From assembly GCF_017303295.1 (NCBI RefSeq), contig NZ_JAFKOK010000019.1:1-64000 (forward strand): a stretch of 64,000 bases of DNA, read 5' to 3'. Position 1 is the first letter of the stretch. Each line of letters begins with the position of its first letter. The position numbers were made by a program, and so were the translations under genes. The notes beneath the pieces are model-generated. The model saw only the letters and a list, made by a program, of their open reading frames with translations, made no database searches and was not told the DNA's origin. This document shows, piece by piece, positions 1 to 64,000 of this stretch. Source of the DNA: Rhodobacter sp. NTK016B. GTDB lineage: Bacteria > Pseudomonadota > Alphaproteobacteria > Rhodobacterales > Rhodobacteraceae.

Positions 1-632
1 CTTGTTGGCGGGCTAGATCAGCGTCGCTCAGCTGAGTCTCAAGCTCAGCGATGCGCGCTTGTGTGGTGGTGTCTAGCTGCGCGAGGTCAGCGAGTGCTTG
101 TTGGCGGGCTAGATCAGCGTCGCTCAGCTGAGTCTCAAGCTCAGCGATGCGGGCCTGCGTGACCGTGTCGAGTTGAGCCAGCTCGGCGAGCGCTTGCTGG
201 CGCGCCAGATCAGTGTCGCTGAGCTGCGTCTCAAGCTCAGCGATCCGCGCTTGCGTCGCGGTATCGAGCTGAGCCAACTCGGCCAGAGCTTGCTGCCGCG
301 CCAGATCGGTATCGCTCAGCTGTGCTTCCAGTTCGGCGATACGGGCCTGCGTGGTCGTATCGAGCTGCGCCAACTCGGCCAGAGCCTGCTGTCGCGCCAA
401 ATCCGCATTGCTCAGCTGGGTTTCCAGTTCGGCAATTCGGGCCTGTGTCGCGGTATCGAGCTGCGCCAGTTCGGCCAGAGCCTGCTGCCGGGCCAGATCG
501 GTATCGCTCAGCTGCGTCTCCAGCTCGGCAATCCGCGTCTGCGTTTCGCTGTCCAAAGCCGCGAGGTCAGCCAGAGCCTGCTGACGGGCCAGTTCCGCGT
601 CGCTCAGGCTGGTCTCCAGATCGGCGATCCGT
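1..632 (-). repeat. 96-bp in-frame tandem repeat inside the coiled-coil gene
   Basis: At least seven units recur with an exact 96-bp spacing. The anchor GCCAGATC (or a variant) starts near 12, 108, 204, 300, 396, 492 and 588. The two leftmost units are almost identical and the units diverge towards 632. Each unit encodes 32 residues, which keeps the frame open. The array continues past position 1, so the copy number is unknown. Confidence 0.93.
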
Positions 633-1504
633 GCGGCCTGTTCGTCGCGCTCAGAGCGCAGGGCCGCGAGGGCTGTCTCGCGCTCGGCAAGGCTGGCGGC
701 GGCGCTGTCCTGTTCGGCCTGAAGCGCGTCGCGCGCCGCACGGGTGCTGGCGAGCTGGGCTTCGGTCTCGGCCCGCGCCGCGCGCAGCGAGCTCAGGGCA
801 CCCTCGGCATCGCGCAGCCCCGCAAGGGCGGTATCGCGCGCCTCTTCGGTCTCGGTCAGGCGCGCCAGCATCTCGGCCAGCGATGCCTCGGTCTGTTCGG
901 CCCGGGCGCGCATCGCGGCGAGCGCGGCCTCGACTGCCTCGCGCTCGGCGGCGGCAAGACGGGCGGCTTCGGTCTGGGCGTCGATCTCGTCGCGCGCCTG
1001 CGCAAGCGCGAGGTTCAGCGCCTCGCTTTCCGACAGGGCCTCGTCACGCGCGGCCTCGGTCGCGGCCAGTTGCTGGCCCAGCTCGGCGCGCTCGGCGATC
1101 AGGGCAGCGACCTGCGCCTCGAAGCTGGTGATACGGGTTTCGGCCTCGGCCAGCGCGTCGCTGCGGGCCTGCAGATCGCGGCCCAGAGCGGCAATCGTCG
1201 CTTCCTGCTCGCGCGCATTGGCTTCGAGCGTGGCGATATCGGCGTTGAGCCCTTCGACCTGCCCTTCAAGCTGGCCCACCCGATTGCGCGACAGGCCCAG
1301 CGCCTCGGTCAGCGACGAGACCTGCGCGGTCAGGCCCTGAAGTTCGTTGTCCTGCGTCGAGATCGTCTCGCGCAGGACGCTCTGGACGATCATGAAGATC
1401 GACAGAACGAACATCAGCACCAGCAAGAGCGCCGTCATCGCGTCGACGAAACCCGGCCAGATCGAGGCCGAGAACCGTTGATTGCCGCGACGCGACAGAC
1501 CCAT
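1..1504 (-). CDS. MotB-like inner-membrane protein with long repetitive coiled coil (partial, C-terminus beyond left edge)
   Basis: The start ATG overlaps the stop of the upstream ExbB/MotA-like gene (TAATG), so the two are translationally coupled. About 501 residues are visible. The N-terminus carries the MotB-type signature WPGFVDAMTALLLVLMFVL (about residues 16-34), one membrane helix that in this family supplies the channel Asp. After it comes an unbroken heptad-like coiled coil rich in Ala, Glu, Leu and Gln. From about residue 290 the chain becomes a near-perfect 32-residue tandem repeat (core ARIAELETQLSDADLARQQ) that is still running at the window edge. Family members usually end in an OmpA-like peptidoglycan-binding domain, which is not visible here. 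Inferred role: B subunit of a proton-driven MotA/MotB- or TolQR-like complex spanning the periplasm. Confidence 0.75.
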   Translation of the reverse strand, partial: MGLSRRGNQRFSASIWPGFVDAMTALLLVLMFVLSIFMIVQSVLRETISTQDNELQGLTAQVSSLTEALGLSRNRVGQLEGQVEGLNADIATLEANAREQEATIAALGRDLQARSDALAEAETRITSFEAQVAALIAERAELGQQLAATEAARDEALSESEALNLALAQARDEIDAQTEAARLAAAEREAVEAALAAMRARAEQTEASLAEMLARLTETEEARDTALAGLRDAEGALSSLRAARAETEAQLASTRAARDALQAEQDSAAASLAERETALAALRSERDEQAARIADLETSLSDAELARQQALADLAALDSETQTRIAELETQLSDTDLARQQALAELAQLDTATQARIAELETQLSNADLARQQALAELAQLDTTTQARIAELEAQLSDTDLARQQALAELAQLDTATQARIAELETQLSDTDLARQQALAELAQLDTVTQARIAELETQLSDADLARQQALADLAQLDTTTQARIAELETQLSDADLARQQ

Positions 1505-2739
1505 TACTCGTCATCCCGTGCGGCATAGCCCGACTGCCGGTTGAGCATCCGCACGGCCTGCGTCAGCATCGCCAGATCGCTGCGCAGATCGGCCAGCGAC
1601 TCTTGCCGCCCCGCCGAAAGCTCTTCGAGAATCCGCACCAGCTGAATGTCCATCGAGCGCAGCCGCAGCCGGGTTTCGGCTTCGATATGCGGCTCGTCAT
1701 CGGTTTCCGGGCGCGCATCGTCCTGACGCTGCATCAGCGCGATCATGCGGTCCTGCCCGTCGGCCATGCGCTCAAGCGCGCGGCCCGTCTCGGTGTCGCC
1801 CGCGTTGAGACGCTGGGCGATCCGCGTCATCGCCTGCCCCAGCGATTGCAGGGCCTCGTCGAGCCGCTCGCGGCTTTCCTCGGCGCGCTCTTGCACACGG
1901 CGCATGGCCTCCATTTGCTCGGTCAGCGAATCCAGCACTTCGGCCACCGCCGACAGACCGGCACCGCCTTCGCCCTCGCCTTCGGCCAGGGCGGTGCCCA
2001 ACCGGGTGATCGAGGACAGCCATTCCTCAAGCTCGCGGTAGAACCGGTTTTGCGCCTGACTGGCGAAGAGCTCGAGGATCCCTACGACCAGCGAGCCGGC
2101 AAGCCCCAGAAGCGACGAGGAGAACGCCGTGCCCATGCCGCTCATCTGCGCTTCGAGCCCGCTCATCAGCCGGCCGAACCCCGACAGAGCGGTCTCACCC
2201 TCTTGCGGGGCGAGCGAGCGGATCGTCTCGACGACGGCCGGAACCGAGGTCGCCAGCCCGTAGAACGTTCCCAGAAGGCCAAGGAAAATCAGCAGGTTGA
2301 CGAGATAGCGCGTGATGTCGCGCTCTTCCTCGATCCGGGTACCCACGGATTCGAGGATCGAGCGCGCCGACGTGGACGAGATATGGCTCGACCGCCCATG
2401 CGCGCGCAGAAGCGATGCCAGCGGCGCCAGAAGCCGCGGCGCGATGGTGATCTGGTGGCCCGGCGTCTGAGCGACGAAACCGCCGATCCAGCGCACGGAC
2501 GAGAAAAGCTGACTGATCTGCCAGAAGGTCGCCATGACGCCGATCACGAAGACCAGCGCGATGAAGCCGTTCAGCCAGATATTGGCCAGAAAGATGCCCG
2601 AGATACGCGGATAGGCCAGCGCCACGCCCGACCCCACCAGCGCCAGCGAGACCAGCATCAGGGTCAGCTGTCGAAGCGGTGGCGTGAACTGGACCCGCCC
2701 GATCGGCCCGAGCGCCCCTGCTCTCAACTGTCTCGCCAT
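1504..2739 (-). CDS. MotA/TolQ/ExbB-like proton-channel family protein
   Basis: This 411-aa membrane protein has two N-terminal helices, a large cytoplasmic segment, and the conserved channel region FLGLLGTFYGLATSVPAVV followed by the helix GTAFSSSLLGLAGSLVVGI. Both are typical of the MotA/TolQ/ExbB family. The C-terminal third is charged coiled coil. I chose the ATG at 2739 because AGGTG lies a suitable distance upstream. The frame is also open to a TTG at 2793, which would add 18 residues. It overlaps the MotB-like gene downstream, so the two products probably form one ion-driven complex. Rhodobacterales homologues are usually named 'biopolymer transporter ExbB'. The true substrate or mechanical role is not known from sequence. 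Confidence 0.85.
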   Translation of the reverse strand: MARQLRAGALGPIGRVQFTPPLRQLTLMLVSLALVGSGVALAYPRISGIFLANIWLNGFIALVFVIGVMATFWQISQLFSSVRWIGGFVAQTPGHQITIAPRLLAPLASLLRAHGRSSHISSTSARSILESVGTRIEEERDITRYLVNLLIFLGLLGTFYGLATSVPAVVETIRSLAPQEGETALSGFGRLMSGLEAQMSGMGTAFSSSLLGLAGSLVVGILELFASQAQNRFYRELEEWLSSITRLGTALAEGEGEGGAGLSAVAEVLDSLTEQMEAMRRVQERAEESRERLDEALQSLGQAMTRIAQRLNAGDTETGRALERMADGQDRMIALMQRQDDARPETDDEPHIEAETRLRLRSMDIQLVRILEELSAGRQESLADLRSDLAMLTQAVRMLNRQSGYAARDDE

Positions 2740-2797
2740 TCGCTGCACCTGCAAAGTTTCGTTAAAACTAGAAGCATCGCAGGGCTTTGCCAACCGT

Positions 2798-3337
2798 CTA
2801 CGTCGCCGATTTCAACACCTTGACGCGATCAGACAGCCATTCAAGCTCGTCATCGGGCAAGCCCAGCGCGGCCAGATGCGCGGCGGTCTGATAGAGATAC
2901 TCGCAATTGGGGCCGCGCCCGCCGGTCGCGCCCGCAATGCGCTGCGCTTGCTCTTCCAGCGTCAGGTCGCCGCGATACTGATCATGCGTGCGGTCAATGA
3001 CATAAACCACCGCCTCGACCTCGCGCCCGTCGTCCAGCGTCAGGTTGTGGACCTGCTCCAGATACGCCGCCGAGATCAGTTCGCGCGCGCGCAGATACTC
3101 CATCGTCTCTTCGGCGATCTCGGGCGCGATCTCGAAGGCCACGCCGTTGCACGAGGCCCCTTCGGCCGCATCCAGCGCCAGAACCAGACCGGGCTTCTCG
3201 ACCGTGCCGCGATGATGGATCGACAGCATGCAAAACGAGCGCCGGAAGCCCGGCAGCACCGCCAATTGCCGCGCGGTCCAGGCGAAACCCGGATTCCACA
3301 CCAGCGATCCATAACCGAAAACCCAAAGCGGACGCAT
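2798..3337 (-). CDS. chaC: ChaC-like gamma-glutamylcyclotransferase
   Basis: The 179-aa protein starts with the ChaC fold signature VFGYGSLVWNPGF, the glycine-rich substrate loop near residues 6-18. It also has the conserved Glu region ISAAYLEQ (about residues 91-98) and Y-YLYQTA near the C-terminus. ChaC enzymes cleave glutathione to 5-oxoproline and Cys-Gly in the cytoplasm. An ATG at 3337 and a GTG immediately before it at 3340 are both possible starts, and AGGTGA lies just upstream. The gene is on the same strand as the ExbB-like gene, about 58 bp from its preferred start. No functional link between them is evident. Confidence 0.88.
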   Translation of the reverse strand: MRPLWVFGYGSLVWNPGFAWTARQLAVLPGFRRSFCMLSIHHRGTVEKPGLVLALDAAEGASCNGVAFEIAPEIAEETMEYLRARELISAAYLEQVHNLTLDDGREVEAVVYVIDRTHDQYRGDLTLEEQAQRIAGATGGRGPNCEYLYQTAAHLAALGLPDDELEWLSDRVKVLKSAT

Positions 3338-3443
3338 CACTCACCTGCCGATCAGACTTTCGCGACCGCCCGTCGCGGGACTGGCCGCCTGCCTGTCGGC
3401 CATGTACACAGCAGGCAGCGAAAGAACAACACGGGGGCCGGGA

Positions 3444-4445
3444 ATGCGCGCCATGAGATGGGTAATCGTGCTGGTGGTCCTCGCCACGATCGGGTGGTGC
3501 GGCTATTGGTTCGTGGGCACGCGCGCGCTTGACCGCGCCATCGCACAGGGGCTTGAACGCACGCCCGAGCTGAGCGCCGAAACCTATCACATCAGCGGCT
3601 TTCCCAACCGTTTCGATGTCACCTTCGACGCCCCCCGCGTCACGCTCAGCGACGCCGAATGGACCGCGCCCTTCGTGCAGTTCTTCGCGCTGACCTACAA
3701 ACCGCACCATCTGCTTGCCGTCTTCCCCCACGATCAGGTCTTGCGGCTGGGCGGGACCGAGACCCTCATCCATTCCGAAGACCTGCGCGCCTCGATGGTG
3801 ATGGAGCCGGGGCTCGACCTGCCGCTCGACCGCATGACACTGGTGGGCGACACTCTCGATCTGCAGATCACCGAGCCCGCGCGCGGCACCGATACCGGCG
3901 CGACGTGGCAGATTGGCCAGCTTCGGCTCGCCAGCCGCCGGACCGACGACACCACACAGCAGCTGGTCGCGCTGGCCGAAACGGTCTTCCCCGACCCCGC
4001 GCAGATGGACCGTGTGGACCCGCAGCGCCTGTGGCCGCGCCGGTTCGATACGCTGCGCCTTGATGCCGAAGCCGAAACCGACCGCGCGCTTGATCGTCAT
4101 CTGGTGTCGGACGGCGCGCAGGTGCGGTTGACCGATCTGACTTTCACCGGGCTTCAGATCACCTGGCCCGAGGTAGATTTCCGCCTGTCTGGCCGCCTCA
4201 GCCCCGGCGCCGACGGCCGGCTGTCGGGTGACGCGACGGCGAATGTGACAGGCTGGGAAGAGATGCTCGACATCCTGCGCGCGTCGGGGCTCATCACCGA
4301 CGAGGCTGCGGCGATGGCCAATACCACGCTCGCCGCCATGGCGCAGGAAGATATTCTGGAAGTACCACTGAGCGTGGTGGACGGCGTCGTGCGGCTTGGC
4401 CCCTTCGCGCTGGCCACGCTGCCGCCGCTGTCGCTCGCGCCCTGA
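3444..4445 (+). CDS. DUF2125 domain-containing protein
   Basis: The 333-aa protein has an N-terminal membrane anchor (about residues 4-24, WVIVLVVLATIGWCGYWFVG), then a soluble domain beginning with the DUF2125 hallmark HISGFPNRFDVTFDAPR and the segment APFVQFFALTYKPHHL. This family is common in Rhodobacterales and Rhizobiales and has no assigned function. The bulk of the protein is expected in the periplasm. The frame extends upstream to 3402, but the ATG at 3444 puts the hydrophobic segment at the N-terminus. It is divergent from chaC and convergent with the VanZ-like gene. Confidence 0.82.
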   Translation: MRAMRWVIVLVVLATIGWCGYWFVGTRALDRAIAQGLERTPELSAETYHISGFPNRFDVTFDAPRVTLSDAEWTAPFVQFFALTYKPHHLLAVFPHDQVLRLGGTETLIHSEDLRASMVMEPGLDLPLDRMTLVGDTLDLQITEPARGTDTGATWQIGQLRLASRRTDDTTQQLVALAETVFPDPAQMDRVDPQRLWPRRFDTLRLDAEAETDRALDRHLVSDGAQVRLTDLTFTGLQITWPEVDFRLSGRLSPGADGRLSGDATANVTGWEEMLDILRASGLITDEAAAMANTTLAAMAQEDILEVPLSVVDGVVRLGPFALATLPPLSLAP

Positions 4446-62423: not shown

Positions 62424-62500
62424 GGTCCCGTAGCTCAGCTGGATAGAGCGGCTGCCTTCTAAGCAGTTGGTCAGGGGTTCGAGTCCTCTCGGGATCGCCA
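62424..62500 (+). tRNA. tRNA-Arg (anticodon TCT)
   Basis: The 77-nt cloverleaf has acceptor GGTCCCG/CGGGATC with one G-T pair, D-arm TAGCTCAGCTGGATAGAGC, anticodon loop CTTCTAA (TCT at 62458-62460) closed by GCTGC/GCAGT, T-loop GGTTCGAGTCC and an encoded CCA end. It reads AGA arginine codons. The integrase gene lies immediately downstream, so its 3' end is the likely attachment site. Confidence 0.97.
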
Positions 62501-62523
62501 CACCCTTCATAGTGCCTTGATAA
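62480..62523. other. Probable attachment site (attL) at the 3' end of tRNA-Arg
   Basis: The tRNA 3' segment GTTCGAGTCCTCTCGGGATC and the following bases adjoin a convergently placed tyrosine integrase. Such integrases usually recombine within the T-arm and acceptor 3' end. The second copy (attR) would lie to the right, outside the window. Confidence 0.55.
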
Positions 62524-63627
62524 TCAAGCGTTTTTAGAAGTTTTACACTCTGGGGCCGGGTGTTTTACATCGTTCTGTAGATGTTCTTCGCCCATAACCT
62601 GCCGCCGGCGGTCCGCCGTCGCGGTGTAATGCTCGGCCTCGCGCAGCGTTTTGTGGCCGCCCCAAGACATGATTGCCTGAGTCGATCCGCCCGCTTCGGC
62701 GATCGCTGTCAGGCGTCCGGCGCGCAGCCCGTGGGCTGTCTTACCCTCGATCTTCGCCTCGCGCGCGGCGATGCTGATCAGATTGGACAGGCCCTTGCCG
62801 GACCGAGCTTTGCCGGCCCGGGTCCCCAGCATCATGAACCCGCCCGGCGCCACGGCGCGAACGGCGGTGATCGCCTCAGCCCGCGCCTGCTCCCAGCCAC
62901 GGGCCCATGCCGGCAGGGGCGAAGTCCAGGGCACATACGCCATTCCGCCCGTCTTGCCCTGCCGGAAGGCCAGCACTCCGTCCGGACTGACATGCGCCCA
63001 AGCCATGGTCGCTGCATCGTCAACGCGGCACCCGGCCCACCAGATCAGCTCGAAACAGCCACGCGCCGTTGTGCCGATCGGCCAGCGCTTCCGGAACTTC
63101 TCGATCTCGGTTTCGGTCCATGGCGCCCGGTCTTTGGTGTTCTCGACCTGCTTCTTGATCCCGACGCTCGGATCGACATCGATCCAGCCACGCGTCACGC
63201 TATGAGAGAAAACCAGCCGCCAGGCGCGCAGCCTCTTGTTCGACTGGATCGGCGCCAGCTTGCCCAGATCCGCGCGGATGTGCTTCGTCAGGATCTTTGC
63301 CAGTGCGAGATCACCGTAATCGGCGCGGATCGCGTCAAACTCCCGGCGCATCATCGCGCGGTAGCCTTCCGACAGGCTCGCGAATTTGTGGCCACCAGCC
63401 GTGTCTTGGACCGCGTGGGCCAGCGTTCCCGTCGCCGCCGCGCCTTTTGCTGGACGCGGTGCCAGCGCTTCCTGGGCGGCCCATGCCTCGATGAACGCCG
63501 GATGCGTCTCTGGCAGGTCAGGCAAGAGGGCACGGGTGACGCGGTGATAGCGGTAGATCTTCCCGCGGCGCGTGATCCGATGGACGCGAGGCAGTTTCAC
63601 CGCGTGATCCCGAAGGCCCTGTCGCAT
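62524..63627 (-). CDS. int: Tyrosine-type site-specific integrase
   Basis: The 367-aa recombinase has an N-terminal SAM-like core-binding domain (about residues 85-170, KILTKHIRADLGKLAPIQSNKRLRAW region) and a C-terminal catalytic domain with the Arg in WWAGCRVDDAATM, the beta-hairpin Lys in RQGKTGGMAY, HGLR in KTAHGLRAGRLT, GGH in SWGGHKTLREAEHY and the Tyr nucleophile at EHYT. The catalytic set looks complete. It is convergent with tRNA-Arg and overlaps the excisionase-like gene. Confidence 0.93.
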   Translation of the reverse strand: MRQGLRDHAVKLPRVHRITRRGKIYRYHRVTRALLPDLPETHPAFIEAWAAQEALAPRPAKGAAATGTLAHAVQDTAGGHKFASLSEGYRAMMRREFDAIRADYGDLALAKILTKHIRADLGKLAPIQSNKRLRAWRLVFSHSVTRGWIDVDPSVGIKKQVENTKDRAPWTETEIEKFRKRWPIGTTARGCFELIWWAGCRVDDAATMAWAHVSPDGVLAFRQGKTGGMAYVPWTSPLPAWARGWEQARAEAITAVRAVAPGGFMMLGTRAGKARSGKGLSNLISIAAREAKIEGKTAHGLRAGRLTAIAEAGGSTQAIMSWGGHKTLREAEHYTATADRRRQVMGEEHLQNDVKHPAPECKTSKNA

Positions 63628-63842
63628 GCCGCCGCGTCCTCATCCCCTTGGCTGTCCCCTTCATAGGGCAGCTCGGACGCATAAGCGTCAAGGTCGAGAC
63701 GGTCATACAGCCGTTTCGCGCCCAGCTCTTTGCGCGGGATATTCAGCGTGGCGAGCTTCGACGCGGACACGCCAAGATAGGCCGCTGCCTCCGGGGCTGG
63801 CAGCAAACGCGGCACGAAAGTGATGCCAGCGCGGGCAGTCAT
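63597..63842 (-). CDS. Small excisionase/AlpA-like HTH protein
   Basis: The 81-aa protein has a MerR/excisionase-type HTH: LLPAPEAAAYLGVSASKLATL, then IPRKELGAKRLYDRLDLDAY, where the conserved RLYDR-LD pattern marks the wing. It overlaps the integrase start by 31 bp and the upstream gene by ATGA. It probably controls recombination direction of the element. Confidence 0.82.
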   Translation of the reverse strand: MTARAGITFVPRLLPAPEAAAYLGVSASKLATLNIPRKELGAKRLYDRLDLDAYASELPYEGDSQGDEDAAACDRAFGITR

Positions 63843-64000
63843 TTTGACGGTCCCATGTGCAAAACCGACAGACCGTCGAGGAAATCGGGAAACGAAATGT
63901 CTCGGCCGAGGGCGTCACGGCAGGCCTTGAACGCCATATACTTGGCCTTCCCGGCGTTTTCGGCCTCAAAGGTCGCCCCGTCGAACCAGCGAGGAGTGAT
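63839..64000 (-). CDS. Truncated gene of the integrated element (C-terminal 53 residues)
   Basis: An open frame enters from the right edge and ends in a TGA that overlaps the excisionase-like start (ATGA). The visible C-terminus (starting ITPRWFDGATFEAENAG) is not recognised. A start could lie outside the window. Coupling to the excisionase-like gene is the main support. Confidence 0.6.
   Translation of the reverse strand: MTPRWFDGATFEAENAGKAKYMAFKACRDALGRDISFPDFLDGLSVLHMGPSK

Follow-up and report, generated by a model that had tools for sequence, protein, structure and literature searches.

Genes at the left end of the element

The right edge of the window, by which we mean the whole 64,000-nucleotide stretch of DNA analysed, carries a tRNA-Arg(TCT) gene (62424–62500, plus strand) identified by ARAGORN. 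A tyrosine integrase ORF of 367 aa (62524–63627, minus strand) converges on this gene with a gap of 23 bp, and the profile searches matched it to PF00589 (E = 2.9e-11) and to the integrase profile phrog_1 (E = 3.3e-26). Its residues R201, K225, H299/R302, H325 and Y334, which we take to be the catalytic set of tyrosine integrases, were invariant in an alignment of four sequences. The start of the integrase is overlapped by an ORF encoding an excisionase-like small HTH protein of 81 aa (63597–63842, minus strand). The profile matches of this ORF are weak (HTH_17, E = 0.0012, below the Pfam cut-off; phrog_66 excisionase, E = 2.4e-4), and its product is 58% identical to that of a gene annotated as excisionase in phage Pthi1. 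The next ORF on the minus strand, an uncharacterised one of the phage left arm taken from the ORF list (63839–64000), overlaps the excisionase-like ORF and extends beyond the window edge; the Pfam and PHROG profiles matched nothing in the 53 residues that it encodes within the window. This is the arrangement that an earlier note on the same DNA had described, namely a tRNA gene with a convergent integrase having a complete catalytic set, an overlapping excisionase-like gene and a further coupled gene at the edge, and all of these features were recovered.

The window comprises positions 1–64000 of contig C10, which is 69,369 bp long and ends 5.4 kb past the window, at 69,369. The draft genome consists of 4,842,026 bases in 86 contigs, 47 of which are tiny and were masked (read as N). 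The designations C1, C10, C17, C22–C31, C75 and C86 refer to contigs of this genome, and G008, G015, G016 and G017 to congener genomes.

The 5.4 kb past the window encodes an NrdR-type zinc-ribbon protein (PF22811, E = 8.2e-14), a CI-like S24 repressor (phrog_4, E = 1e-32), a CII-like activator (phrog_101, E = 2.1e-6) and an HTH protein with similarity to D5-like regulators (phrog_323, E = 1.5e-4). This is a temperate-phage early region. It also holds a phage-borne acyl-carrier-like protein (C10:64488–64748, i.e., L005:4488–4748) having a PP-binding domain (PF00550, E = 4e-9) and a DSLD motif, relatives of which were seen in the C1 prophage, on one IMG/VR contig (L192, 79%) and, by eye, in L029. 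Neither this protein nor the HTH protein at L005:8214–9332 had a match in the phage records.

C10 breaks 6.9 kb into the element. Its last 55 bases recur on C1, 194 bases before the end of that contig, on which a related prophage starts beside tRNA-Met(CAT). The contig probably broke here because the related prophages have sequence in common.

The attachment core and its flanking motifs

The 18-bp core at the 3' end of the tRNA gene (62484–62501, plus strand) is exactly repeated on the minus strand of C75 (141116–141133, site a). As the repeat is only 18 bp long, a 15-bp pattern was needed to find it: the last 25 bases of the tRNA, searched with up to 3 mismatches, matched the tRNA itself only. 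The whole-genome pattern search with the last 15 bases (masked contigs read as N) gave, besides the tRNA, one exact copy and one copy with a single mismatch, both of them on C75. With the reversed pattern as a control, one match was likewise obtained when up to 1 mismatch was allowed, and the core alone is therefore near chance level and not decisive.

The sequence around the core provides further evidence. Relative to the core, the motif GTTTTACA stands at precisely −94 and −41 in the attR of G017, in site a and in a further attR-like site on C75 (site b, 110 kb). On the left side, two copies are found at +39 and +61 from the core in the window (62540–62569, plus strand), and the same motifs occur at +40 and +61 in attL of G017 and of Pararhodobacter zhoushanensis. 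Six of the seven copies counted on both strands of 729,152 fetched bp of the 4,842,026-bp genome belong to C10, site a and site b. At least two copies were present in 6 of 28,984 sampled 150-bp stretches. These motifs are most simply read as probable integrase arm sites, those in the window being the P' sites. According to the earlier note, an integrated element would be refuted if the 3' end of the tRNA did not recur within about 100 kb. As far as the draft allows, such a copy does exist: it is an exact 18-bp one with the arm spacing of the congener, and it lies on another contig, at a distance that the summed pieces put at ~43 kb.

An insertion sequence links two contigs at the probable right end

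An insertion sequence of 1,053 bp encoding a DDE transposase (PF13737, E = 5.8e-46) is located at C75:144529–145581. The search of the genome itself, masked contigs apart, also found it at the right end of C75 (61 bases, 97%) and in the first 55 bases of C23 (100%), with weaker matches in two copies on C75 (67–68%) and in a 140-base piece on C22 (72%). The 9-bp sequence GAAGCCATC adjoins the insertion sequence on both outer sides, at C75:144520–144528 and at C23:56–64. Such a repeat is characteristic of an insertion into DNA that was formerly continuous, and it joins C23 to C75; no repeat of this type was seen by eye at the plasmid-side flanks of the insertion sequence. Together with the 55-mer common to the contig ends, in a test that covered 40 of them, the 9-bp duplication ties the right end to the tail and muramidase genes of C23.

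The coding sequence on the two sides fits the same join, as pieces of one AbiU-like gene stand on either side of the insertion sequence. The N-terminal piece (C75:144061–144561) matches positions 80–162 of the 537 positions of PDLC02357 (E = 4.6e-10) and had no Pfam match at E ≤ 0.01. The C-terminal piece (C23:20–1315) matches positions 169–535 of 537 of the same AbiU profile (E = 1.1e-57) as well as AIPR (PF10592, E = 4.1e-40). Across both pieces, the profile covers most of the protein, while the reading frame, split by the insertion sequence, is not intact. AbiU1/AIPR is described as an abortive-infection family (PMC3506569), and the gene was probably once an extra gene protecting the lysogen.

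Beyond the insertion sequence, C75 carries repABC genes (RP-C, E = 9.2e-60), and at its right end the contig runs into this insertion sequence again. For these two reasons, C75 would in this place be either chimeric or a cointegrate with a plasmid. The repABC part (C75:145.6–249.1 kb) may be a separate circular plasmid of ~104 kb or part of a cointegrate. Setting C75 aside as a plasmid on account of its repABC genes was considered and rejected, since the insertion sequence explains the join.

Candidate contigs of the middle part

C23 is the sole phage contig that could be placed, through its link to the attR at site a. In addition to the AbiU-like piece, it encodes a tail protein (phrog_2048), Phage-tail_3, a GT61 glycosyltransferase and a muramidase with a peptidoglycan-binding domain; the profile search of the candidate phage contigs gave no family match for a holin. 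C24 carries genes for TerL (phrog_15, E = 1.7e-160), a portal, a major head protein and a tape measure protein, C28 for two primase-type proteins, and C30 for a TerS-like protein (phrog_57, E = 8e-11). These contigs come in alternative versions (C24/C27, C28/C30 and C23/C31), whose longer common blocks are 89–95% identical, some C28/C30 blocks being 71% identical. Such alternatives are expected for related prophages in one cell. Packaging and head genes are present on C24/C27; these contigs are alternatives common to the related prophages and, like those with the replication genes, are candidates for the middle part with no unique assignment.

Comparison with relatives and known phages

The best match of the integrase in the phage records was that of Paracoccus phage vB_PthS_Pthi1 (MK291444), a siphovirus induced from P. 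thiocyanatus, with 50–51% identity from end to end. Pthi1 shares with the present element the overlap of integrase and excisionase and a 15-bp core at a tRNA 3' end, but it sits in tRNA-Ser(GGA). Relatives of its Toprim protein and primase (43–54%) are found on C28/C30, and C27/C24 were matched at 35–43% by its protease and by one tail protein. For its TerL and portal, in contrast, C86 was the only match in the fetched stretches, and C24/C27 gave none.

Closer integrases were found in G017 and in P. zhoushanensis ZQ420 (NZ_REEZ01000001), which are 65–66% identical, occupy the same tRNA-Arg(TCT) and have the same left-arm motifs. The G017 element (integrase 65% identical) is complete, measuring 38,353 bp between its 18-bp cores, and has the same right-arm spacing as the attR described here. 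Its head and tail proteins, in contrast, match C24/C27/C23/C31 at 25–37% only, and no AbiU-like gene was recognised by eye at its right end. Together with a neighbouring hydrolase gene, the P. zhoushanensis integrase suggests that the present genome is Pararhodobacter-like. The integrase of Rhodobacter phage RcapNL, which is listed as temperate (PMC8601537), is more distant (41% identity over 99%).

A similar case by description is the prophage vB_PdeS_PD10 of P. denitrificans ISTOD1, a tyrosine-integrase siphovirus of 41,212 bp located in tRNA-Arg(TCT), the same site as here; the same paper also gives 31 prophages with tRNA sites (PMC6536676). Judged by title and abstract opening, none of the papers found for Pararhodobacter together with prophages deals with prophages of this genus.

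Relatives of the integrase at E ≤ 1e-60 occur in 12 of the 394 family genomes and in 2 of the 18 genus genomes, the present genome included in both counts. A tRNA gene stands beside the relative in 10 of the 13 other family loci scanned (none in three): tRNA-Arg in eight (TCT 4, CCT 2, CCG 1, ACG 1), tRNA-Glu in one and tRNA-Met in one. Among seven congener regions, the orthologous tRNA is followed by an integrase relative in G017 alone, the other six genomes having no match at E ≤ 1e-60.

A probable prophage with two ends

We consider it highly probable that the locus is the prophage of a temperate phage at tRNA-Arg(TCT), with one end on C10 and the other on C75/C23. The earlier note had placed the left end of an integrated element at the tRNA-Arg 3' end, and our results support this. 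A temperate tailed phage would have inserted by means of its tyrosine integrase, which would have recombined the 18-bp core of the phage attP with the identical one in the 3' end of tRNA-Arg(UCU). The phage would carry its own copy of the tRNA end, and the target tRNA would thereby stay whole. The left end would run from 62484 onward, the right end would consist of C75:141116–144528 and C23, and the AbiU/AIPR-type gene near attR is now split by the insertion sequence. We infer that both ends belong to one prophage, the link between C10 and C23/C75 being suggested by the att core and the arm motifs. Its size is estimated at about 43 kb (42–44 kb), as the sum of the pieces with the gaps not counted. 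The prophage is known from pieces of a draft; it is not contiguous, and its middle contigs are present in alternatives (C28/C30 and C24/C27). The integrase and the Xis-like protein may still be able to excise it.

One alternative is that only the left end, i.e., the integrase and the early genes, survives as a remnant, and that C23 and the attR at site a come from a different, older prophage in a site of this type. The break of the contig 6.9 kb into the element would agree with this, as would the blocks common to the related prophages and the decayed second attR, which suggests that older insertions have decayed. We nevertheless regard a remnant as quite improbable: the readable genome holds just one other exact copy of the 15-bp core, this copy has correctly spaced arm motifs and is joined to a tail and lysis module, and two half-prophages would have to make up one by chance. 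Genomic islands and ICEs also rely on integrases of this class and insert at tRNA genes, and the 30.8 kb that follow on C75 look metabolic, inspection by eye having shown no phage gene there. A non-phage integrative element of this kind with a phage-type integrase at tRNA-Arg is, however, still less credible and very improbable indeed, given the CI-like repressor and CII-like activator encoded on C10, the Pthi1 integrase as the best match in the phage records (50%), and the relatives of terminase, portal and tail proteins that G017 has in the same site.

On the prophage reading, an integrase beside a tRNA becomes a prophage with two ends, in other respects an ordinary one. The earlier note had left the cargo as a prophage, an island or a defence locus; the prophage stands, the defence gene is a broken one near attR, and an older island probably lies behind it. 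Elements of this kind are already well known, and the interest of the present one is in the definition of its att sites and in the stacked insertions. For this integrase clade, we suggest an att site with an 18-bp core in tRNA-Arg(TCT) and GTTTTACA at −94/−41 and ~+40/+61. With this definition, prophage ends and fossil insertion scars could be found even in fragmented drafts.

A second attR-like site and a probable older insertion

Site b (C75:110310–110466) is located 30.8 kb from site a and has both arm motifs at exactly −94/−41. Its core differs from the 18-bp core by 2 mismatches, the two sites are 85% identical over 157 bp, and GTTTCACA was noticed by eye in the flank of site b, close to where the second left-arm motif would stand. 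No integrase was recognised by eye in the ORF listing of the 30.8 kb between the two sites. The likeliest reading of this stretch is an older insertion from which the integrase has been lost. As the decayed attR at site b has the same arm spacing, sites of this type have probably served for more than one insertion.

The DNA below site b matches G008 (82%, query 1–3584), where the distance to the tRNA-Arg upstream of it is ~12 kb. A point against this reading is that in G015 and G016 the matches to parts of this block are not on the contig with tRNA-Arg, while in G017 they are on the second contig and, ~0.5 Mb away, on the first. With its matches scattered in this way, the block could have changed its own position. 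Above site b, the DNA matches G015 (90%), again on a contig other than that of the G015 tRNA-Arg. No match across site b was obtained in the other 17 genus genomes searched (E ≤ 1e-20).

Since site b keeps the arm motifs and a near-core, the resident integrase might recombine attL with it. We think it rather unlikely that tRNA-Arg(TCT) has received one element after another and that its fossil attachment sites have remained functional, with recombination of attL and site b removing the prophage and the 30.8-kb metabolic island together. If this were true, an island without its own integrase would stay mobile by borrowing that of the prophage.

Other prophages in the same genome

The prophage at tRNA-Met(CAT) starts on C1 and ends on C17 (C1:208.1–220.2 kb and C17:1–3.5 kb), with a 22-bp core at C1:208124–208145 and C17:3488–3509. 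It has a different tyrosine integrase (PF00589, E = 3.6e-7), and its blocks share 87–95% identity with the left portion of the prophage at tRNA-Arg. C17, whose lysis genes resemble those of G017, was also considered as the right end of the tRNA-Arg prophage and was rejected, as it carries the tRNA-Met core. Another similar lysis region, belonging to a further related prophage, is present at C25:1–1.6 kb, so that there may be three related prophages in the genome. A separate prophage region with relatives of the Pthi1 TerL and portal is located at C86:18–36 kb.
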